A stretch of DNA of 64,000 bases, from NCBI GenBank assembly GCA_021730945.1, contig JAKFYH010000054.1, positions 1 to 64,000 of the forward strand, written 5' to 3'. This document shows, one piece after another, positions 5,536-56,813 of the stretch (positions within the stretch are counted from its first letter, which is position 1; every line of letters begins with the position of its first letter). A program made the position numbers and the translations under genes. This stretch comes from Acidobacteriota bacterium. Its GTDB lineage: Bacteria > Acidobacteriota > Vicinamibacteria > Vicinamibacterales > UBA2999. The notes below the pieces were generated by a model, which did no database searches, was not told where the DNA came from, and saw only the letters and a program-made list of their open reading frames with translations.

Positions 5536-6522
<987 letters not shown>

Positions 6523-6535
6523 GAGTGAGCTCCTC

Positions 6536-9349
6536 CTACTGTGACGGGGGTATTCCGGCGCCGGTCAGCACTTTGACGATGTCCTGCCAGCGATTGGGTG
6601 ACACCTTGCGAATGACGTCCTCGGCTTGCCGCGTCCACTGCTGGCCGGCGGCTTCCACGTTCTTCTTCGTGTGCGCAACGAACGCGTCGGTATACCGGGA
6701 CTGATTGAACCGCTGCTCCACCGCCCACACCGCCCACTGCTTGATCGAGTCGGTATAGGCGGCGGGGTTGCTGTCGGGCCGGAGCAGTCCGGCGTGCTCG
6801 ACCCGATAGGCCGCCTGCAGCACCCGATTCATGGGCGCGAACTTTTGCTGCACGGCCGGCGGCGCCAGCCGCAGGATGGTGCCGGGCCGGGGCGGGGCCT
6901 TGAGTAATTCCACGCAGTACGCCGACAGTTCGAGCCGCACGGGCGCGGCCTTGGCCAGCCGTGAGAAGGCCTGCTGCACGCGTTGCTGCGCCTGCTGCCT
7001 GATCGGCTCGACCGCAAACGGCATGGACGACAGGCGGGCCGGCTTGCCGCTCAGGTTCAGGACCTGCAGCGTGAGGGTTTTGCCGGTCGAGCCGCCGGCG
7101 TCGCTCAACAGCAGGTGCACACCAGCCGGAAGCCCCGAGGCCTGGCCGCTGCTATACGGCGCGATGGCGGCGAGATCGCGTGGACTGATCAAGGGCGCCG
7201 GCCCGATGCTGCCGCGCCAGCGATCGACAGCCTGGGTCAGCGTGCGCGCCAGCAAGCCCAACGGGTTGAACCACGACCGCACCTCCTGCCGCGGCACCGG
7301 CGGAATCCACACGCCAGCAGCCGGTGGTTTCGACCATGTCGGGATACCGGGCGTCACGTTGAGGCGCTCTCGATACATCTCGCTGGAGAACTGCTGGAAG
7401 TCGAACGGGTCGAGAATGTCGACTTGCTTGACCTGAAACGCCGGGTCGGCGTCGCAGCCATCACACCCCCACGGTAACGGGCTGGTCAGGTCGATGCAGG
7501 TTTCACCCACGCCGCATGGCGGCGGCGAGCAGGTGCCGGGCACCCCGCAATCGGACTCGACCGGCGTGCAGGTGCCAGACTCTGCACACGACTGCCATTG
7601 GTCGGCACAGTCGCTGCCGAAGCAGGCGGCCGGCGGTGGTTCGCTGGCGCTGGCGGTCGTCTTGCACTTCTTGTTGCAGGCGGCCAGGGCTTCTGCCAGC
7701 TGCGCCAGCTTCGCGCGTTGCTCTTCGAATGCATCGAAGTCCGACTGCCGCTGCAAGTCGTTGGCACGCCGGGCCAGATCCTGAAGAGCGCGGTGCGCCG
7801 TGCGGAGCTGATTGGCCAGTGGCTCGCACTCCTTGCACGCCGCGATCGGCGTGATCGGATCGACGGTCACGGTTCGGTCTGCCGGACGCGTGCCCGTGCC
7901 GCCGGCGACGGCGACACCCCCCGTATCCCCAGCCCCGGTGGTGGCGCACTTGCGGTTACAGTCATCGAGCGCGGCTCTTGCCGTGGCGATCTCGGCCGTC
8001 AGTCGATCGATTCGCTGTTGATGACTGGCGCGCTCGCCGCGCAGCCGATCCTGAAACTCACGCAGCTCGGCCGCCCGTGCCTCAATCTCCTGCAATCGCG
8101 CGGCGACGTTCTGTTCGCCGGGCCGGTTGACGATGGCGCGATCGGTGGCCAGCCGGTCGCCAGAGATCATGCTGACATCGATTGCCGCCTGGGTCCGGTC
8201 TCGTTCCGCGGTCGCCGTCTGCCGGTCGCTGTTCAATCGGGCCAACTGCTCGGCTAACGCGGCGCAGTCCGGGCAGGCCGCGGGCGGCTGGGAGGTGGGC
8301 GCGACCGATGGCTCAGGTCGCGAATCGGTCACCGCGGTACCGGCATTGGCCGTCGTCGCGGTCTTGCAGCGATTCTCGCAGTCGATGATCAGCTTGATGA
8401 GGTCGGCGATCCGCCGGGTCTGCTCGGCAATCTCGACCTCGATCTCCTCCAGCCGGCGCCCGTCGCGCTCGACGCCTTCCTGCTGGTCCTTGTTCACATC
8501 CGTGAGACTGTCGATCTCCTTCTGGCGGGCGGCGCTGGCGGTGGAAAACAGTTGCTGGTATTCCAGGCGGGCGATCTCGTTGGCGCGATGGCCCATGGCG
8601 TTCTCGGTGATCGAGATGCCCTTGAGCAGCGCGAGCTTGCGGTCCCAGAGATAGTTGAGCGTGTCGTAGGCGCTGTTGGCCTTGTCGGCCAGGCCGGTGC
8701 ACTCCTTGCACAGCACGTGGACCTGGCGATGCGGCGGCTTCCTGAACTGCTGCACATTGGGCACGTCATTGATCCAGCCGTCCGGCGGATTCTCCAGATC
8801 GGGCGGCAACGGCCCCAGGTCGCCCGGGTCGTCAAAGGCAATGACATGGCTCATGTGCACTTCGAGTTCGGGATTCCAATCCGGGTACGACGCATTGGTC
8901 TTGCTGTCGTCATTGACATCGGGACAACACTGGCACCGCGTGGCGGTGTTCATGATGTAGAAGGCCTTGATCTTGCCGGCCGCCAGCTCGTCGCGCACCT
9001 GGCGCTCGCTTTGCGGATCCCAGCCAAAGGTGTGTGAGGTCCAGCGCCGGCCATTGGCGTCGGTCGGCGCGTTGTCGTCGTCGTTGTAGACAACCTTGAT
9101 GCCGAAGCTGTCGGAGGCATTCTCGACACACGCCACGCACTCCTCGCGGTCGAGCAGCGACAGGAAGCGCTCGGGAAACCCGCGCTGGCGCATCTGGGCT
9201 TTCTTGGCTTCGCGCACCCGGTTGGTGGCGGCTGGGTCGCGGCGATACCGCGGGCCGCAGTTGTCGTTGGGATTCTGGGCCGACAGCGCGTGGTCGCCGG
9301 CCATCCCCATCATGAGGAACGCGAAGAATACGAGGGGCCACCGTCGCAT
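6536..9349 (-). CDS. Large secreted protein with three Cys-bracketed coiled-coil modules
   Basis: No family is recognised. The 937-residue product has a signal peptide (residues 1-24, ending ALSAQ). Three similar modules follow an N-terminal region: CKEC at 214-217 to CENRC at 324-328, CPDC at 359-362 to CNRKC at 464-468, and CKEC at 505-508 to CNKKC at 558-562. Each starts CxxC(x)3L(A), runs through 58-115 residues of heptad-rich helix, and ends CxxxC followed by KT or AT. A Cys-rich, EGF-like stretch (about 575-640) and a C-terminal alpha/beta region follow. This suggests rigid, disulfide-stapled helical hairpins in the periplasm or outside. The second of two tandem start codons (GTG-ATG) is used, five bases after GGAGG. 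Confidence 0.8.
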   Translation of the reverse strand: MRRWPLVFFAFLMMGMAGDHALSAQNPNDNCGPRYRRDPAATNRVREAKKAQMRQRGFPERFLSLLDREECVACVENASDSFGIKVVYNDDDNAPTDANGRRWTSHTFGWDPQSERQVRDELAAGKIKAFYIMNTATRCQCCPDVNDDSKTNASYPDWNPELEVHMSHVIAFDDPGDLGPLPPDLENPPDGWINDVPNVQQFRKPPHRQVHVLCKECTGLADKANSAYDTLNYLWDRKLALLKGISITENAMGHRANEIARLEYQQLFSTASAARQKEIDSLTDVNKDQQEGVERDGRRLEEIEVEIAEQTRRIADLIKLIIDCENRCKTATTANAGTAVTDSRPEPSVAPTSQPPAACPDCAALAEQLARLNSDRQTATAERDRTQAAIDVSMISGDRLATDRAIVNRPGEQNVAARLQEIEARAAELREFQDRLRGERASHQQRIDRLTAEIATARAALDDCNRKCATTGAGDTGGVAVAGGTGTRPADRTVTVDPITPIAACKECEPLANQLRTAHRALQDLARRANDLQRQSDFDAFEEQRAKLAQLAEALAACNKKCKTTASASEPPPAACFGSDCADQWQSCAESGTCTPVESDCGVPGTCSPPPCGVGETCIDLTSPLPWGCDGCDADPAFQVKQVDILDPFDFQQFSSEMYRERLNVTPGIPTWSKPPAAGVWIPPVPRQEVRSWFNPLGLLARTLTQAVDRWRGSIGPAPLISPRDLAAIAPYSSGQASGLPAGVHLLLSDAGGSTGKTLTLQVLNLSGKPARLSSMPFAVEPIRQQAQQRVQQAFSRLAKAAPVRLELSAYCVELLKAPPRPGTILRLAPPAVQQKFAPMNRVLQAAYRVEHAGLLRPDSNPAAYTDSIKQWAVWAVEQRFNQSRYTDAFVAHTKKNVEAAGQQWTRQAEDVIRKVSPNRWQDIVKVLTGAGIPPSQ

Positions 9350-46041: not shown

Positions 46042-46968
46042 CTAGGACTCCCGGTCGGGTGCGGCGACCAGGTTGGTCGCCAGCACGATGGCGAAGATGG
46101 CGATGGCCGGGGTCAGCGTCCAGGGAAAGCGCGCGACGGCATTGTAGTTGCCGGCTTCCGCCAGCATGGTCCCCCAGCTGGCCACCGGCTCGGGGAACCC
46201 GAGTCCGACAAACGACAGCGTGGCTTCAGCCAGGATGAATCCCGGCAACAACAGGGTCGCCTGGATCACCAGGTGCCCCGAGCAGGCGGGGATCAGGTGG
46301 TGAAGCAGAATGCGCAACGGGCTCGCGCCGAGCGAGCGCGCGGCCTGGACGTACTCGCGATCGCGTTCGGCGGCAACGATCGCGCGCACGCCCCGGGCGA
46401 CAAAGGGCCAGCCGACCGCGACAAAGATGCCGGCGACCAGCAGGAACACGGTGGAGGCCGGCAGCACCAGCGGCAGCACCGACCGCAGGACCAGCACGAC
46501 ATAGATCACCGGCAGGATGAGCACGAAGTCGGCCACTCGCATGACCAGATCGTCGACCCAGCCACCGCGAAAACCAGCCCAGGCACCGGCGAGCGCGCCA
46601 ATCACGACGGCACCGAGCGTCGCAAACAAGGCCAGGCCGACCGACGTCCGCGCGCCGTAGAGCAAGCGCGAGAGCACATCGCGCCCGAAGTTGTCGGCGC
46701 CAAGCAGGAACACCGGTGGATCGCCGGCGGCCACGAACCATGGCAGCGGCAACGCCCGCGTGCGATCGGTGTCGAAGCGTTGCTCGAGGCGATCGGCGAG
46801 TACGACCGGATGCACCACCGGCAGGCCGAGGCCTTGCAGGTAGGGCCGCATCGGCGGCGCGTGCAGGAAATCGCGGAACGCCTGGCTGGCCTGATACGGC
46901 GCCAGCCACGGCGCGGCCAGCGACAGCGCGGTCAGGAGGAGGACGAAGGTGGCGGCGCGCCTGGTCAC
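46042..46968 (-). CDS. Oligopeptide ABC transporter permease (OppC/DppC type)
   Basis: The 308-residue inner-membrane protein has six or so helices and the permease EAA loop (AARSLGASPLRILLHHLIPAC). It has the OppC N-terminal extension and FLLGADNFGRDVLSRLLYGARTSV. It overlaps the OppB-like gene by four bases. Neither OppD nor OppF ATPase genes follow; the next gene is the M48 peptidase. Confidence 0.9.
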   Translation of the reverse strand: MTRRAATFVLLLTALSLAAPWLAPYQASQAFRDFLHAPPMRPYLQGLGLPVVHPVVLADRLEQRFDTDRTRALPLPWFVAAGDPPVFLLGADNFGRDVLSRLLYGARTSVGLALFATLGAVVIGALAGAWAGFRGGWVDDLVMRVADFVLILPVIYVVLVLRSVLPLVLPASTVFLLVAGIFVAVGWPFVARGVRAIVAAERDREYVQAARSLGASPLRILLHHLIPACSGHLVIQATLLLPGFILAEATLSFVGLGFPEPVASWGTMLAEAGNYNAVARFPWTLTPAIAIFAIVLATNLVAAPDRES

Positions 46969-47933
46969 GGCGTCTCCCGGGATCGCAGGCGCGGATCAGC
47001 CATCGCCATCAGCGCATCGGCCAGCCACGTGCCGGCGGCCAGGAAGAAGGCGCCGGTCGCGGCGCAGCCGGCCACCAGGTACAGGTCGCGCGCCTTGAGC
47101 GCGTCGTACATCAGGCGCCCCAATCCAGGCCACGCGGTCACCACTTCGACCACGAAGGAGCCGCTGAACAGGCTGCCGATCATCACCCCGTAGAGCCCCA
47201 GCACCGACCGCAGTGACACCGGCCACGCGTGACGGATGATCGCCTGCGCCTGGCCGAGGCCGCGGGCGCGGCTGGCCGCCACGAACGGTTCGCGGCTCGT
47301 CTTCTCGATTGCCTGCGACTGCAGGCGCTCGAGTGTCGCGGCCAACGGCAGGGCGAGCGCGAGCGCGGGAATCGGAACGTGACGGGCAAGGTCCACCAGC
47401 CATCGCGCCCAGTCCTGATCGACACCGGCGGCCGAGGTCATCCCGCCGACCGGCAACCAGCCGGTGCGGGCGGCGAGAAAGACCAGCGCCAGCGATCCGA
47501 TCAGAGGCGGCACCGACAACGCCAGGACCGACAAGCCACGGACCACGCTGCGACCCAGCCCACGGGAGCGGCTGCCCGAGTACACGCCAAGCGGCAGGCC
47601 CACCAACGTGGCGACCAGCAGGGCGACCACCGCCAGGACCGCGGTATTGAGCGCGCGTTCACCGATCAGCGTGTTGACGGGGCGTGAGTAAAGCAGGGAG
47701 CGGCCAAAATCGAGCCTTGCCAGGCCGCCGAGCCACGACAGGTATTGGCTGGCGAGCGGCCGATCGAGGCCCAACTCGGCGCGCAGCCGGGAAAGCGCCT
47801 CGGGATCGAGCGCCAGGGCCTGCTCGGAGGCGATGTCGCCGGGCGCCAGGCGCGTGAGCAACAGCGACGCCGACGAAACAGTGAGGACCAGGAGCAGGGC
47901 AAAGCCGAGACGCCTCAGCAGGTAGCGTCCCAT
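46965..47933 (-). CDS. Oligopeptide ABC transporter permease (OppB/DppB type)
   Basis: The 322-residue protein starts MGRYLLRRLGFALLLVLTVS, has DRPLASQYLSWLGGLARLDFGRSL typical of OppB, an EAA loop (SRARGLGQAQAIIRHAWPVS) and six helices. It lies six bases after the binding-protein stop. Together the three genes make most of a peptide or nickel/opine importer; the ATPases must be coded elsewhere. Confidence 0.92.
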   Translation of the reverse strand: MGRYLLRRLGFALLLVLTVSSASLLLTRLAPGDIASEQALALDPEALSRLRAELGLDRPLASQYLSWLGGLARLDFGRSLLYSRPVNTLIGERALNTAVLAVVALLVATLVGLPLGVYSGSRSRGLGRSVVRGLSVLALSVPPLIGSLALVFLAARTGWLPVGGMTSAAGVDQDWARWLVDLARHVPIPALALALPLAATLERLQSQAIEKTSREPFVAASRARGLGQAQAIIRHAWPVSLRSVLGLYGVMIGSLFSGSFVVEVVTAWPGLGRLMYDALKARDLYLVAGCAATGAFFLAAGTWLADALMAMADPRLRSRETP

Positions 47934-47939
47934 GCCGCG

Positions 47940-49709
47940 CTAGCGGCCTCCCTGCCCTGCCGGTGCCGGCGAACGCACGGTAATGGTGTCGGCGGCCCAC
48001 AGTAACTGCGGGCGCAGGATCGACGGCGAGAGCGAACCCAGCCGCGAGCTGACGCCGATGTACATGCGCGGCGCGACAAAGTAGAGGGCGGGCAGGTGCT
48101 CGGCAAAGATGTCCTGCACCTGATCGAACAGGCGCTTGCGTTCCGGCTGGTCGATGCTCGACATCATCTGGTGCATCAAGGTGTCGATCTGCGCTTCCCA
48201 CTCCGTGGCCGGCGAGGCTTGCCCGATGTTCCAGATGTGCGCCGTCCCGGAGCTCAGCCAGAAATCCGGCGACATCGCGGGGTCGAGGGCCGACGCGGTC
48301 AGGACGAAGAAGATCGCCTCGAAATCCCCCTTGAGCATCCGCTGCACGAGCGCGCCCTGCTCGAGTGCGACCACGTCGACGGCAATGCCGAGCGGGCGCA
48401 GGTCGTCGCGCAGGACCGCCGCGGATCGTTCGAGCGACGAATTGCCGCGATAGGTCAACAGCGTGAAGCGTGCCTCGGTCCCCTGCTCGTCTTCGAGCCA
48501 CTCATCGGCGTCGCGATTGGCCAGGCCCAGCCCGGTCAAAAGCTCCTTGGCCTTGTCGAGCGAGAAGCCGTAGCGCCGCACGTTTGGTGAGAACCATTTC
48601 TGGTTGCCGGGTGTCACCGGCCCCCAAATAGGCACGCCGGCGCCGAGGAACACGGTGTTGGCAAAGGCCTCGCGGTCGACCGCGTGGGAGATCGCCTGCC
48701 GAAACTCGCGCCGGTTGATCCAGCTGCCGCGCGGATCCTTGGCCCACTGCTGCGGCCGCAAGTTGAAGAAGAACACGTCGGGATCGGTGCCGACACCAAG
48801 TTCCAGCAATTGCAGCTTGCCCTGGTCCACGAGCGGCCGCAGCGTGGCAATGTCTTCGGGCCGGACCTGCTGCTGCAGCATGTCGATCTGGCCCGACTGG
48901 AGTCTCACCAGTTCGGCGTTCTGGTCGGGCACCACCTCCGCCACGATCTGATCAAGATACGGCAGGGCCACGCCCGAGGCGTCCTTCTTCCAGTAGCGCG
49001 GGTTGCGGTCGAAGACCAGCCGTTGGCCCGGCTCGTAGCGCGTGAGCAGGAAGGGCCCGAGCGAAACCAGCTCGCCAACCGGCGTCGAGGCATTCCAGGC
49101 CTTGGCGAACGTGCCTGCCGCTAGTGCCGCTTCGAGCTTGTGGCGGGGCGCCAGCATCAGGTTGTCGAGCAGGGCGATGCCGGGGCCAAAGCTGCCGGGA
49201 AAGCCGACGACGACGGTCCGCGCGTCCGGCGCGGTCACGGCCAGGGGCTGGCCATCCACCTTGAGAGAGCCGGCCAGGATGCTGTTGGCGTTGGGATCGT
49301 AGATGGCCTTGAAGGTAAAGAGGACGTCGGCAGACGTGAAGGGCGTGCCGTCCGACCAGGCCGCGTCGCGCAGGGTCAGTGTGAAGGTGCGACCGTCAGC
49401 CGAGGTGGTCCAGGACTCGGCCATCGCCGGCTCGACCTCCTGGGTGGCGCGGTTGAGGCGCACCAGGGTGCTCTGGGTCAGGTGGGAGATGAACGAGGTC
49501 GGGAAGCTGCGATCGACCCACCGGTTGAAGGAGGTCGGTTCACTGCGAAGCGACGAAGTCATGACCCCGCCGCGGGTGTTGACGTCGGAGAAAACAATCT
49601 CCGTGCCTGAATCAGCTGGCGGCTGTTGATCCGACCACCAGCGCCAGGCCATGAAAGCAATCAAGCCCAACAGCAGAACGCTCAGCAATGCCCGCGGTTG
49701 TCGGTTCAC
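47940..49709 (-). CDS. Oligopeptide-binding protein (OppA/DppA, family 5)
   Basis: The 589-residue protein is a family 5 solute-binding protein: RGGVMTSSLRSEPTSFNRW, MAESWTTSADGRTFTLTLRDAAWSDGTPFTSADV, and FRQAISHAVDREAF. The N-terminus (ALLSVLLLGLIAFMAW) is an uncleaved anchor. The GTG at 49709 is preferred over ATG/GTG codons upstream because AGGA lies six bases before it. It leads its own operon with two permeases. Confidence 0.9.
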   Translation of the reverse strand: MNRQPRALLSVLLLGLIAFMAWRWWSDQQPPADSGTEIVFSDVNTRGGVMTSSLRSEPTSFNRWVDRSFPTSFISHLTQSTLVRLNRATQEVEPAMAESWTTSADGRTFTLTLRDAAWSDGTPFTSADVLFTFKAIYDPNANSILAGSLKVDGQPLAVTAPDARTVVVGFPGSFGPGIALLDNLMLAPRHKLEAALAAGTFAKAWNASTPVGELVSLGPFLLTRYEPGQRLVFDRNPRYWKKDASGVALPYLDQIVAEVVPDQNAELVRLQSGQIDMLQQQVRPEDIATLRPLVDQGKLQLLELGVGTDPDVFFFNLRPQQWAKDPRGSWINRREFRQAISHAVDREAFANTVFLGAGVPIWGPVTPGNQKWFSPNVRRYGFSLDKAKELLTGLGLANRDADEWLEDEQGTEARFTLLTYRGNSSLERSAAVLRDDLRPLGIAVDVVALEQGALVQRMLKGDFEAIFFVLTASALDPAMSPDFWLSSGTAHIWNIGQASPATEWEAQIDTLMHQMMSSIDQPERKRLFDQVQDIFAEHLPALYFVAPRMYIGVSSRLGSLSPSILRPQLLWAADTITVRSPAPAGQGGR

Positions 49710-49721
49710 TTTTTGTCCTGT

Positions 49722-49739
49722 CGGCCAATAACTTGGCCG
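49722..49739. promoter_or_regulatory. Inverted repeat in the binding-protein leader
   Basis: CGGCCAA-TAAC-TTGGCCG, seven paired bases, just upstream of the ribosome-binding site. It may be an operator half of a control region or a 5' hairpin. Confidence 0.4.
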
Positions 49740-49756
49740 GTTCATTTCCTGCACTG

Positions 49757-49977: not shown

Positions 49978-50190
49978 ATGGACGTTCAAGCGATGACGTT
50001 TAGTGAACCGGAATTTCAGCCGCAGGTAGGCCGCAGCGTGAGTATCGAGCAGGCCGCCCAGTTGTTGTCGGTGTCGCGCCGGACCGTCTACTACCGCATC
50101 CGCGACGGACGGCTCCGCACTATTCGCACGCGAGGCGGTTCGCAGCGCGTCTTGATGGATTCGGTCGACGAATTGCGCGGCTCCCATTAG
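49978..50190 (+). CDS. Small helix-turn-helix (excisionase/MerR-type) DNA-binding protein
   Basis: The 70-residue protein is mostly one winged-HTH: VSIEQAAQLLSVSRRTVYYRIRDGRLRTIRTRGGSQRVLMDSVDEL. It matches the HTH_17 type in excisionases and small regulators, which bind DNA as part of larger switches. AAGGAG lies eight bases before the ATG. It is followed after 64 bases by the subtilase. No integrase or phage gene is near, so a transcriptional role is likelier than excision. Confidence 0.85.
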   Translation: MDVQAMTFSEPEFQPQVGRSVSIEQAAQLLSVSRRTVYYRIRDGRLRTIRTRGGSQRVLMDSVDELRGSH

Positions 50191-50254: not shown

Positions 50255-51991
50255 ATGGACACCTTGCAGCCCAATGGCCGGCGCCGCGGACGCGGCCTCT
50301 GGCCGACGTGGCGTGGTTCCACTGCCCTATTGACCGCGGCCATCCTCCTGGCCTGCGCCAGCTCGGCTCTGGCCGGCAACCGGCGCGCGCGGCTGTCGTC
50401 TGACCTCACGGCGCATCTCAACTCGAGCTCGTCGGCTGCGGTCGATGTGATCGTCTCGGGATCGCAGGAGCGGATTGACCGCCTGGTGAAGCGTCACGGT
50501 CTCAAGGTGAAGAAGGTGCTCTCGTCGGGTGCCGTCTTGCGGGTATCGCGACGGGCGCTTGAATCGCTGGCCAACGACCTGGATCTCGAGGCCGTGTCCG
50601 GCGATGCGATCGTGCGGTCGATTGACCAGGGCAGGGCTCGGGGCACAGGGGCCAGCGCGGCCTCCCCCACGGGCGTGGGAGCCGCCGGCCTGACGGCGGA
50701 GGTGATTGGCGCCGACGCCGCGTGGGCGGGCAGCATCCAGACCCTTGGCGCGGTGGATGGGCGCGGCATTGGTGTGGCGATCATCGACAGCGGGATTGCC
50801 GACCATCCGGCGCTGCGCGACCGGGTGGTGGCGGCCGTGGATTTCACCGACCCCCGGGGCCGCGGCCACGACAGCTACGGGCACGGCACGCACATCGCCG
50901 GCATCATCGCGGCGCGGTCGTTCAAGAACACCGCCGAGGGCGCCGGCAGCGGCATGGCGCCTGGAGCGCACTTGATCAGCCTGAAGGTGTTGGGCGCCGA
51001 CGGCACGGGCATGGCCAGCAGCGTGATCGAGGCGATCGATTGGGCGATCCGTTATCGCAAGCCATTTGGCATTCGCGTGTTGAACCTGTCGTTGGGAGCG
51101 GCGCCGACGCAGAGCTACAAGGACGACCCGCTGTGCCAGGCGGTCGAGCGGGCGGTGAAGGCCGGGCTGGTCGTGGTGACCTCGGCGGGCAACTACGGCA
51201 CCAACGAACAGGGCCAGTTGATTTTCGGCAGCGTCACCTCGCCGGGCATCTCGCCGTATGCGATCACGGTCGGGGCCGTGCGCACGCAGGGTACGGCGGA
51301 CAAGTCGGATGACGAGGTGGCGCCGTGGAGTTCCAAGGGCCCGACGCTGGTGGATCACATTGTCAAGCCCGACCTGGTGGCGCCCGGCTCCAAGATCGTG
51401 TCGACGGCGGCGGCGGCGGCGACGTTGATGACGCAGTTCCCGGAGCGCTTCATCGACGGCCCCGGCGCGCGCGACTACTTCTCGATGAGCGGCACCAGCA
51501 TGGCGGCGGCCGTGGTCAGCGGAGCGGCGGCGCTACTGCTTGACGGGCGCGGTGACCTGACGCCACTGCAGGTGAAACTGGCGCTGCAGGCCAGCGCCGA
51601 CTTCATGCCGTCGGCCGGCTTGCTGGCAGGTGGCGCGGGGAGCCTGGATCTGGAAGGGCTGGAGGCAATTCTAGACAAGGTTCGAGTTCTAGACGCAGTC
51701 GGACCGCGCGCATTCGCATACCCTGGAGCTGCCAAGTCCCTAGTCGATTCGAACACCATCATCTGGGGTGACACCATCATCTGGGGCGACACCATCATCT
51801 GGGGCGACACCATCATCTGGGGCGACACCATCATCTGGGGTGACACCATCATCTGGGGTGACACCATCATCTGGGGCGACACCATCATTTGGGGTGACAC
51901 CATCATTTGGGGTGACACCATCATTTGGGGTGACACCATCATTTGGGGTGACACCATCATCTGGGGCGACACCATCATCTGGGGCGACTAA
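50255..51991 (+). CDS. Secreted S8 subtilase with C-terminal (TIIWGD)13 repeat
   Basis: The 578-residue protein has an Arg-rich N-terminus and signal helix (STALLTAAILLACASSALA), a propeptide-like region (about 45-140), and a subtilisin catalytic domain with Asp178 (IIDSGIADH), His210 (YGHGTHIAG) and Ser415 (SGTSMAAAVVSG). Residues 501-578 are 13 perfect TIIWGD hexapeptides up to the last codon. The repeat may form a beta-solenoid or be a sorting/adhesive tail. From about codon 470 the base composition drops and rare CTAG appears, matching the following genes. Start ATG at 50255, after GGAGA, is preferred over TTG at 50204. Confidence 0.93.
   Translation: MDTLQPNGRRRGRGLWPTWRGSTALLTAAILLACASSALAGNRRARLSSDLTAHLNSSSSAAVDVIVSGSQERIDRLVKRHGLKVKKVLSSGAVLRVSRRALESLANDLDLEAVSGDAIVRSIDQGRARGTGASAASPTGVGAAGLTAEVIGADAAWAGSIQTLGAVDGRGIGVAIIDSGIADHPALRDRVVAAVDFTDPRGRGHDSYGHGTHIAGIIAARSFKNTAEGAGSGMAPGAHLISLKVLGADGTGMASSVIEAIDWAIRYRKPFGIRVLNLSLGAAPTQSYKDDPLCQAVERAVKAGLVVVTSAGNYGTNEQGQLIFGSVTSPGISPYAITVGAVRTQGTADKSDDEVAPWSSKGPTLVDHIVKPDLVAPGSKIVSTAAAAATLMTQFPERFIDGPGARDYFSMSGTSMAAAVVSGAAALLLDGRGDLTPLQVKLALQASADFMPSAGLLAGGAGSLDLEGLEAILDKVRVLDAVGPRAFAYPGAAKSLVDSNTIIWGDTIIWGDTIIWGDTIIWGDTIIWGDTIIWGDTIIWGDTIIWGDTIIWGDTIIWGDTIIWGDTIIWGDTIIWGD
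51755..51988 (+). repeat. 13 tandem 18-nt repeats encoding TIIWGD
   Basis: The unit is ACCATCATCTGGGGCGAC. Copies differ only at synonymous third bases (GGT/GGC, ATC/ATT), in blocks: copies 8-11 are all ATT...GGT. That pattern suggests recent expansion with selection on the peptide. Confidence 0.97.
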
Positions 51992-52020: not shown

Positions 52021-52032
52021 TCCTATATAGGA
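52021..52032. promoter_or_regulatory. 12-bp palindrome over the mini-ORF ribosome-binding site
   Basis: TCCTATATAGGA, perfect, overlapping AGGAG at 52029-52033. It could be an operator. It is a rare AT-core palindrome for this genome. Confidence 0.35.
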
Positions 52033-52041
52033 GAAGCAGTC

Positions 52042-52071
52042 ATGAGCCGATTGATTATTTGGGGCGAATAA
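52042..52071 (+). CDS. Nine-codon mini-ORF encoding MSRLIIWGE
   Basis: ATG AGC CGA TTG ATT ATT TGG GGC GAA TAA. AGGAG ends eight bases before the ATG, one of the cleanest ribosome-binding sites in the window. The peptide repeats the IIWG core of the preceding subtilase tail, ending in acidic Glu where the repeat has Asp. It lies 50 bases after the subtilase stop and 56 before the HD-GYP gene. It could be a peptide signal, a leader peptide, or a remnant copy. No family is known to me. Confidence 0.5.
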   Translation: MSRLIIWGE

Positions 52072-52127: not shown

Positions 52128-54014
52128 ATGAATCTCACGCCAAGAGGTCAGCTGTACATCGTAGTTGTGGCTGCAGCGGGCCTTCTCGTCGTAGGCCACT
52201 GCATCACAATGCTGCTGGCCAGCCCAATCGGCTGGGAGTGGGTAGTCCTAGCTGGGCTAACCCTCCTGAGTGGTTCGTTCACCGTTCGTGTCCCGTCCTT
52301 TCAGGCGCGAATCTCGGTCTCGGAGACGTTTGTTTTCACGTCGGTTCTCCTTTTTGGAACCTGCGCTGGGACTCTGACGGTGGCCCTCGACACTTTGGTC
52401 GCCGCCCTTAGCTCCAGACGGCGAGCTCGAGAACCACTGCGGGTCCTCTTCAACCTTGCGTCGGCATCTCTGTCGATTTGGACCGCAGGGCACGCCTTCT
52501 ACGCCTTGTCTGGCATTCAGCCGCTGTCCATGGCCGATACTCGGGTCCCCGAGTTGCTCTGGCCACTCGTGGGCATGACGTCGATCCACTTCTTGCTCAA
52601 TAGTGGGTTGGTCGCTGCGGCACTGTCAACTGAACGCAATGACAGCGCGTTCATGATCTGGCGAAAGATCTTTCCCTGGCTATCGATTAACTACTTCGGA
52701 GGTGCTTCGGTCGCGGCGTTGTTGGTGTCCTACACAAGGACCGTCGACTTCATGGCGCTGAGCATTATCGTTCCGCTCCTCGTCATCTCGTATTTGACCT
52801 ACAAGACGGCTCTGGGCCGTGTCGAAGATGCAGTGGTCCATGTCGACGAAGTGAATCGCCTTTACATTTCCACCATCGAAACACTAGCAACGGCGATTGA
52901 TGCGAAGGACCAAGTGACTCACGGCCATATTCGGCGAGTCCAACGATTCGCGCTTGGCCTGGCTGGAAAGCTCGGAGTCAACGACCCCCTTCAGCTCAAA
53001 GCCCTCGAGGCCGCCGCGCTCCTGCACGACATGGGCAAGATAGCCGTGCCGGAACACATCCTAAACAAGCCCAGCCGGCTGACGAGTGGAGAGTTCGACA
53101 AAATGAAACTCCACGCCAGCGTTGGCGCCGACATCCTATCCTCCATTCAATTCCCATATCCAGTGGTTCCAATCGTTAGGCATCATCACGAGAACTGGGA
53201 CGGGACCGGTTACCCTGACGGACTCCGAACAACACAGATTCCTCTTGGCGCCCGAATCCTAGCGGTGGTTGATTGCTTCGACGCACTGACATCAGATAGA
53301 CCATATCGAACGAAATTGACCGACTCCGAGGCCGTTGAGATTCTCATGGAGCGACGCGGCGTCATGTACGACCCTTTAGTTGTTGACAGATTCGTCACCT
53401 ACAAGGACGAACTACTTGAGACGCTCACCGGGAGTCTCGAGTCCCCGAGCGATGTGGAAGACCTACTCAAGCCTCATGTTGAAGCTGGCTCGGAACAATA
53501 CAAGGCTTCACGACAAGCCGTTTTCGAGGCCGACAGAATGGAGCTTCAGCGCGCGGTCAGAGTCGTATTGGCATCGATCAACAAAGAGATCTCATCGTCG
53601 CTTTCAATCGTTTATCTGAAGGAACGCTCTAGGGATGTTTTGTTTGCAGTGGACGCCCTCGGAATGCAGGCCGCTGCGGTCGTCGGAGTGACCGTCCCCC
53701 TTGGAACCAAAGTGACAGGTTGGGTCGCGGCAAACGGAACTCCTATCATCAACACCGATGCTAGGCTTGAAATTCCCGCGTCAGCCGGACTTGAACGGGA
53801 CATGCTTTGCTCAGCCCTCCCCATTCGATCGAGCATCGAGGTGATTGGCGTTTTACTGGTTACAAGGGCCCAGTCGCGGCCATTTGACTCGGTGGAAATA
53901 GGCTTGCTCGAAAGCCTGTGTCTGCGGTTTCGCGAAGCCCCACTGCGCGAGCTTGTTGCGAATTCTGGAGGCAGTTCGAGATCCGATTCTCAAAAACGTC
54001 CCAGTATCCACTAG
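52128..54014 (+). CDS. Membrane HD-GYP phosphodiesterase with GAF domain
   Basis: The 628-residue protein has six to seven N-terminal membrane helices (to about 230), then an HD-GYP domain: HDMGKIAVPEHILNKPSRLT (about 299) and HHENWDGTGYPDG (about 351). HD-GYP enzymes break down cyclic di-GMP. A GAF-like region (about 440-590) and a short tail follow. Base composition is about 50-55% GC, well below flanking genes, with many codons rare elsewhere here. It is followed by the sigma54 activator after nine bases. Confidence 0.92.
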   Translation: MNLTPRGQLYIVVVAAAGLLVVGHCITMLLASPIGWEWVVLAGLTLLSGSFTVRVPSFQARISVSETFVFTSVLLFGTCAGTLTVALDTLVAALSSRRRAREPLRVLFNLASASLSIWTAGHAFYALSGIQPLSMADTRVPELLWPLVGMTSIHFLLNSGLVAAALSTERNDSAFMIWRKIFPWLSINYFGGASVAALLVSYTRTVDFMALSIIVPLLVISYLTYKTALGRVEDAVVHVDEVNRLYISTIETLATAIDAKDQVTHGHIRRVQRFALGLAGKLGVNDPLQLKALEAAALLHDMGKIAVPEHILNKPSRLTSGEFDKMKLHASVGADILSSIQFPYPVVPIVRHHHENWDGTGYPDGLRTTQIPLGARILAVVDCFDALTSDRPYRTKLTDSEAVEILMERRGVMYDPLVVDRFVTYKDELLETLTGSLESPSDVEDLLKPHVEAGSEQYKASRQAVFEADRMELQRAVRVVLASINKEISSSLSIVYLKERSRDVLFAVDALGMQAAAVVGVTVPLGTKVTGWVAANGTPIINTDARLEIPASAGLERDMLCSALPIRSSIEVIGVLLVTRAQSRPFDSVEIGLLESLCLRFREAPLRELVANSGGSSRSDSQKRPSIH

Positions 54015-54023
54015 AAAGTCTTC

Positions 54024-56813
<2,790 letters not shown>

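Follow-up and report, generated by a model that had tools for sequence, protein, structure and literature searches.

Peptide signalling of the leaderless kind is best known from Firmicutes. Short hydrophobic peptides that look alike can compete for one TPR receptor, as do cCF10 and its inhibitor iCF10 at PrgX, one of the two coming from another protein. Very short hydrophobic ORFs also occur ahead of larger genes, as in the Erm and TnaC leader peptides. Leaderless communication peptides (LCPs), of which SIP with its receptor RopB is an example, are placed in Streptococcus and other Firmicutes in the relevant portions of PMC6565748 and PMC10518010, which describe them as leaderless, 8-10 residues long and read by a TPR receptor, with a secreted protease gene adjoining in the case of SIP. 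In open-licence PMC papers we find nothing on the motifs IIWGD, IVWGD, IVWGN or NIVWGT, and neither MASE9 nor peptide signalling in Acidobacteriota comes up there.

Here we describe a minigene in a 64,000-nucleotide stretch of an Acidobacteriota genome (referred to as the window; on contig JAKFYH010000054.1). The mini-ORF occupies positions 52042..52071 of the forward strand. Read directly from the sequence, it starts with an ATG at 52042, encodes MSRLIIWGE in nine codons, and stops with the TAA at 52069-52071, and the ribosome-binding site AGGAG (52029..52033, forward strand) lies 8 bases 5' of the ATG. Upstream on the same strand is a subtilase gene (50255..51991; Peptidase_S8, PF00082 E 2.4e-51; the start codon is a chosen one), the C-terminus of which consists of 13 tandem TIIWGD units (51755..51988, by direct reading and repeat count). 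The subtilase stop codon (51989-51991) is separated from the mini-ORF start by 50 bases. This arrangement, first described in the first-pass annotation, is confirmed by the direct reading. In the genome to which the window belongs, I-[IV]-W-G-[DE]-stop occurs twice, at the end of the subtilase and in the mini-ORF. The nine residues include no N-terminal export signal. The subtilase, judged by its N-terminus, is probably exported; its score as a T7SS mycosin (TIGR03921, 150.8 bits) falls below the cut-off of 278.75.

The mini-ORF belongs to a conserved gene set, all members of which are present in the window. On the reverse strand are the genes for an Opp/Dpp-type peptide-binding protein (SBP_bac_5, E 8.8e-76; 47940..49754), an OppB-type permease (BPD_transp_1; 46965..47933) and an OppC-type permease (BPD_transp_1, with OppC_N below cut-off; 46042..46968). 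The others are on the forward strand: a 70 aa HTH protein of the excisionase type immediately before the subtilase (49978..50190; HTH_17, with TIGR01764 above cut-off), the WG-tailed subtilase, the mini-ORF, a membrane HD-GYP phosphodiesterase with a GAF domain, whose N-terminal 240 aa are homologous to MASE9-type sensors (52128..54014), and an activator combining TPR, GAF-like, sigma54 AAA+ and Fis-type HTH parts (54024..56813; PF00158 E 9.4e-65). For the 35 class loci besides the window, we find the HD-GYP gene in 34 (it is missing in L102), the TPR-sigma54 activator in all 29 with room for it (the other 6 are cut by contig ends), and the Opp-type binding protein in 30 of the 32 with room (absent in L149 and L150, cut in 3). 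The subtilase ORF is present in 32 of the 35, being cut in one, reduced to tail repeats at a contig edge in L121, and missing in L102. The small HTH gene is found in 29 of the 35 (absent despite room in 4, cut in 2), and in a count over 49 loci it is found in 30. The catalytic residues of the subtilase (33 sequences) and the catalytic motifs of the HD-GYP protein (32 sequences) are invariant. Some loci depart from this layout. L157, in a genus relative (G003 contig 34, 2957-4135), has the N-terminal part of the subtilase joined directly to the C-terminal portion of HD-GYP, and lacks the tail, the mini-ORF and the HD domain, by deletion or assembly fault. L171 (G126, 5766-7287) has a transposase-like ORF, recognised by eye, between the subtilase and TPR-sigma54 genes, in the place expected for the mini-ORF and HD-GYP. 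In L106 (4803-7129), the HD-GYP gene of G006 is in two overlapping frames, by frameshift or sequencing error.

In a sample of 193 genomes of the class Vicinamibacteria, the codon pattern [MV]xxhI[IV]WG[DE]-stop is found in 26, with a single match per genome, and the reversed pattern used as control has no match in any of the 193. The earlier suggestion that a strong Shine-Dalgarno site together with the repeat motif goes beyond chance holds up on these counts. With one mismatch allowed, there are 33 matches in the 193 genomes, 31 of them in the cassette; the two outside (G012 and G038) were dropped for lack of a cassette. Eight-codon forms add three loci, and reading the junctions of known cassettes adds another two, VRPLIIWTD and MKTIFVWD, for a total of 36 mini-ORF loci in 36 of the 193 class genomes, one each at the locus. 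The peptides have the form M-x-x-[LIV]-I-[IV]-W-[GET]-[DEN] or the 8-residue form. The 32 nine-codon forms all have Ile at codon 5 and Trp at codon 7; codon 4 encodes L, V or I, codon 6 encodes I or V, and codon 9 encodes E, D or N. ATG or GTG serves as start codon, and TAG, TAA or TGA as stop. For codons 4-9, the 28 distinct sequences from these 32 forms show 405, 53 and 933 pairwise differences at the first, second and third codon positions, and nearest neighbours differ by 23 synonymous versus 14 nonsynonymous codons. The flanks show no phase bias, with 1910-2096 differences per phase upstream and 2151-2222 downstream. At 31 of the 36 loci the mini-ORF is preceded by an AGGAGG-like site (4 or more bases). 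Checked for frame disruption and for loss of the ribosome-binding site, the relatives preserve the frame and nearly always the site. The peptide is more conserved than the cassette proteins. On this codon pattern, the nine-codon ORF can securely be taken as a real, conserved coding gene.

The same pattern has 40 matches in a named genome collection, 22 in the cassette and 18 without it. In 21 of the 22 the record is titled Acidobacteria or Acidobacteriota, Vicinamibacteria(les) or Sulfopaludibacter; the remaining one (L071) is labelled 'Cyanobacteria bacterium', which is probably a mislabel. The 18 matches without a cassette, four of which are Lon-protease-like C-termini (named by eye), were set aside, as was one match in the phylum sample (G374), also without a cassette.

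In the phylum sample, hexapeptide repeats of the WG, WS or WA type are found in 54 of 337 genomes. These tails (L195-L275) are widespread in Acidobacteriota and mostly sit on subtilase-like ORFs, and their units are near-identical inside one gene and different between genomes. We examined 39 different repeat-ORF ends that have 250 bases or more of sequence behind them, from 30 genomes with listed repeat places, and counted ORFs of at most 16 codons preceded by a Shine-Dalgarno site and carrying a hydrophobic-hydrophobic-Trp (hhW) motif. Such a mini-ORF follows 9 of the 39 tails, versus 0.02 expected from shuffled sequence; a stricter motif gives 8 of 39 versus 0.007 expected, with 0 matches on the reverse strand. 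These counts exclude mini-ORFs whose ribosome-binding site does not pass, as in L269 and as for MVRIVYWTD and MVQIVYWTD in L270. Five families outside the class have the mini-ORF (f61, f62, f71, f73 and f74), with the peptides MIAQIVYWTD with MNREKIVYWGD; MKSSFIIWEDNQPR; MQFIVYWGD; MNKIVHWTD; and MRTAFIVWEGPRP with MRTNLIFWDGTTP. The minigene has 8-9 codons in Vicinamibacteria and 9-14 in other Acidobacteriota families, and its product is a leaderless peptide with a hydrophobic-hydrophobic-Trp core that copies one unit of the subtilase tail. Since the frame is kept and distant families show the pairing again, it is well supported that the ORF is translated and that its resemblance to the protease repeat, pointed out in the first-pass annotation, is not accidental. 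Tandem copies occur in G280 and G396 (family f61 has such copies). At two G280 loci the copies differ mostly by synonymous changes, and G396 has three mini-ORFs in a row, two of them without a passing ribosome-binding site. The tandem copies and the synonymous G280 differences fit a free peptide whose dose matters.

Where, among these 39 tails, a true HD-GYP gene is the neighbour, the mini-ORF is present in 6 of 6 cases. Three of the 39 have the mini-ORF without HD-GYP, two of which are cut at the subtilase side and one of which is a second copy; 26 have neither, and four (L220, L230, L231 and L271) have a MASE9-like ORF directly at the subtilase stop, with no HD domain match and no mini-ORF. 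In f71, f61 and f73 the next gene encodes an HD-GYP protein with homology to that of the window over its first 240 residues, and in f71 and f61 Pfam names MASE9 in this N-terminus, with GAF and GGDEF parts behind. In f74 (L216) the HD-GYP gene is upstream of the subtilase. In L216 and L217 no HD-GYP gene comes after the mini-ORF. A terminator-like hairpin with a T run stands behind it in both, so the mini-ORF looks like the last cistron.

Within the class, 35 of the 36 mini-ORFs come after a WG tail, at a distance of 19-89 nt from the tail stop in nearly all measurable loci. Three class loci (L128, L134 and L138) have the subtilase and HD-GYP pair without the mini-ORF. The tail units differ among genomes and the mini-ORF does not, so an exact one-to-one correspondence between tail and peptide is unsupported; the covariation between the two is weak (p 0.033, with kinship ignored). 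The one exception to the tail rule is L102 (G103 contig 283, 1-3219), which carries a DTIVWGN peptide in place of the WG tail. There the mini-ORF lies behind a small HTH gene and beside Opp genes, and downstream of it come another small ORF, MNVKTQIKAGSDGDTIVWGN, and then genes for an HlyD protein and a C39-peptidase ABC exporter. The 6,110-base contig of L102, a draft-genome fragment, has no subtilase and no HD-GYP gene. L102 is the sole locus here at which WG peptides go together with an exporter. In four f19 genomes, HlyD relatives (34-36% identity) have no WG peptide in the 1.5-kb flanks scanned, which makes L102 unique so far.

At 17 of the 36 loci, the sequence CCGATA is found 9-11 nt after the Trp codon TGG. 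It is part of a predicted sigma28-like element (L100-L169) consisting of TAAT, about 16 bases, and GCCGATAA, which overlaps the 3' end of the mini-ORF and ends just past its stop. In the nine-codon forms, CCGATA goes with TA at codon 4, which gives the TAAT: 14 of the 32 have both, 2 have TA only, and 16 have neither (Fisher p 5e-7, with kinship ignored). The part of PMC8325347 dealing with FliA/WhiG (flagellar sigma) promoters gives the consensus as TAAA and GCCGATAA, and has WhiG promoters preceding c-di-GMP genes in Rubrobacter; the -35 of the predicted element reads TAAT instead of TAAA. A FliA/WhiG sigma factor scores above cut-off in 35 of the 36 genomes. At some loci, the HD-GYP gene seems to have its own predicted promoter inside the mini-ORF. 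The element is absent from the window at the corresponding place, so the peptide is conserved without it.

What the minigene does can be read in several ways. Repeat arrays could leave fragments downstream, and the overlap of the 3' end with the sigma28-like element in about half of the loci could make a promoter look like an ORF, but a relic of the subtilase repeats or a non-coding element reading as an ORF by chance is very improbable: it is already contradicted by the codon pattern with its third-position variation, and start, stop and ribosome-binding site are kept even where the promoter element is missing, while distant families have independent mini-ORF sequences. Besides a signal peptide and a substrate or inhibitor of the protease, either of which may still hold, the first-pass annotation had proposed a leader for the HD-GYP gene. 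Such a leader would control this gene in cis, by ribosome stalling or coupling at the mini-ORF. The mini-ORF is upstream of HD-GYP in 34 of the 35 loci and in the window, usually 24-69 nt away, the HD-GYP start has no clear Shine-Dalgarno site, and the fixed length, constrained C-terminus and high conservation of the peptide would suit a leader. We nevertheless consider a leader improbable. The 36 loci show no conserved RNA structure (mean z -0.29) and a spacer of variable length; at the 17 loci with the sigma28-like element, HD-GYP transcripts from that predicted promoter would lack the mini-ORF, because the element ends past the stop; L102 has a second mini-ORF and exporter genes downstream instead of HD-GYP; HD-GYP is upstream of the subtilase in L216; and f61 has tandem copies. 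A leader also leaves the likeness to the protease tail unexplained. The two WG mini-ORFs ahead of the HlyD and C39-peptidase ABC exporter genes in L102 would be expected if the mini-ORF product were a precursor made for export, perhaps of a modified or an antimicrobial peptide, a reading that we regard as quite unlikely given that this is one locus in 36, that the f19 HlyD relatives have no WG peptide in their 1.5-kb flanks, and that no modification enzyme is recognised among the profile matches of the cassette proteins.

It is a less distant prospect, though still a doubtful one, that the peptide partners the subtilase in the cytoplasm, pairing with the nascent WG tail and, until export, acting as a chaperone that keeps the tail soluble or as an inhibitor that holds the protease inactive. 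The position of the class mini-ORFs behind a WG tail speaks for such a partner, even the exceptional L102 having its DTIVWGN peptide, as does the apparent last-cistron position in L216 and L217. On the other side, the mini-ORF is missing behind 30 of the 39 WG-tailed subtilases outside the class, so the tail can do without it; the association extends to HD-GYP (6 of 6); tail and peptide hardly covary; and the tail is predicted to be disordered, in a poor subtilase model (pLDDT about 26) that we leave out of our conclusions. Best fitting, though we put it somewhat short of an even chance, is a free regulatory peptide that may act in trans within a protease and c-di-GMP signalling module. A trans-acting free peptide would account for the translation signals, the lack of a fixed gene order, the tandem copies, the resemblance to a repeat that is exported and the variant with exporter genes; against it are the lack of an export signal, the weak covariation with the tail, the absence of Opp genes beside the mini-ORF in L149 and L150 despite room, and the loci that do without a mini-ORF, namely the 30 of 39 tails outside the class and L128, L134 and L138 within it. 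In this reading the exported subtilase would display or release WG units outside the cell, the minigene would supply the matching motif inside, and a common receptor would read both, their ratio setting HD-GYP activity and, in Vicinamibacteria, sigma54-dependent transcription. In a fuller scheme the message would be present twice, as a secreted tail array and as an intracellular minigene, and the cell would compare released outside units, arriving via Opp, with the inside peptide and adjust c-di-GMP and sigma54 transcription to the outcome. We offer this fuller scheme as speculative and rather unlikely as it stands.

Two parts of the cassette are candidate receptors. One is the MASE9-like membrane part of the HD-GYP protein, which by homology would be a partner shared across the phylum. 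MASE9 (PF20972) scores 19.1 bits on the HD-GYP protein of the window, against a gathering score of 24.3, and homologues in L264, L268 and L270 that are above the gathering score can be aligned to it. The other, found in the class, is the TPR domain of the sigma54 activator, which has genes of the Opp importer nearby and in whose favour it counts that each class locus with room encodes it. Residues 1-600 of this protein are modelled with a mean pLDDT of 87.5, and fold comparison gives Z 22.2 with MalT, 21.4 with Rap, 20.3 with RapF bound to its peptide, 18.3 with NprR bound to NprX and up to 19.8 with AimR (17-21 for Rap, NprR, PlcR and AimR); eukaryotic APC subunits match too (Z 20-21), TPR folds being generic. 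In Pfam the same residues have only weak TPR matches, and they match no NCBIfam family, the RopB/Rgg clan (TIGR01716) included, at E up to 1. Mean entropy over 25 sequences is 2.43 in the TPR region versus 0.91 in the AAA part; a poorly conserved TPR region and a peptide that hardly varies argue against the TPR domain as sole receptor.

Genes as short as 8-9 codons escape annotation. A minigene that is conserved across a bacterial phylum and linked to both a protease tail and a c-di-GMP enzyme would bring leaderless peptide regulation into a new branch of the bacteria. It would also provide a candidate ligand for a membrane HD-GYP sensor, and the WG tails of Acidobacteriota subtilases would gain a first function that can be tested. 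Among known systems, the pair cCF10 and iCF10 differs from ours, where the mimic lacks an export signal and its counterpart is an array of repeats carried by a protease, and Erm and TnaC differ in that here we find no attenuator structure, the gene order is not fixed, and there are tandem copies. The RRNPP systems (Rap, NprR, PlcR, AimR) resemble the cassette in the predicted TPR fold of the N-terminal part of the activator, a fold match that proves no kinship, and in the Opp genes alongside, but there is here no HTH-TPR receptor and no propeptide with an export signal, and the TPR part shares one protein with a sigma54 activator. The LCPs, as far as the portions of PMC6565748 and PMC10518010 on SIP and its kin describe them, share with our minigene a stand-alone ORF of about 8-10 codons for a hydrophobic/aromatic peptide, with its own ribosome-binding site and no leader, a protease gene next door, and a TPR protein in the cassette. 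They differ, within the same portions, in that LCP sequences are distinct codes, whereas the Acidobacteriota peptide is nearly invariant across families, and in that here the tail of the neighbouring protease bears the peptide motif and an HD-GYP enzyme is part of the module. As the TPR protein of the cassette has no match to the RopB/Rgg clan of receptors that defines LCPs, we do not file the mini-ORF as one; by analogy, leaderless communication peptides appear to be the nearest in kind to the mini-ORF peptide.
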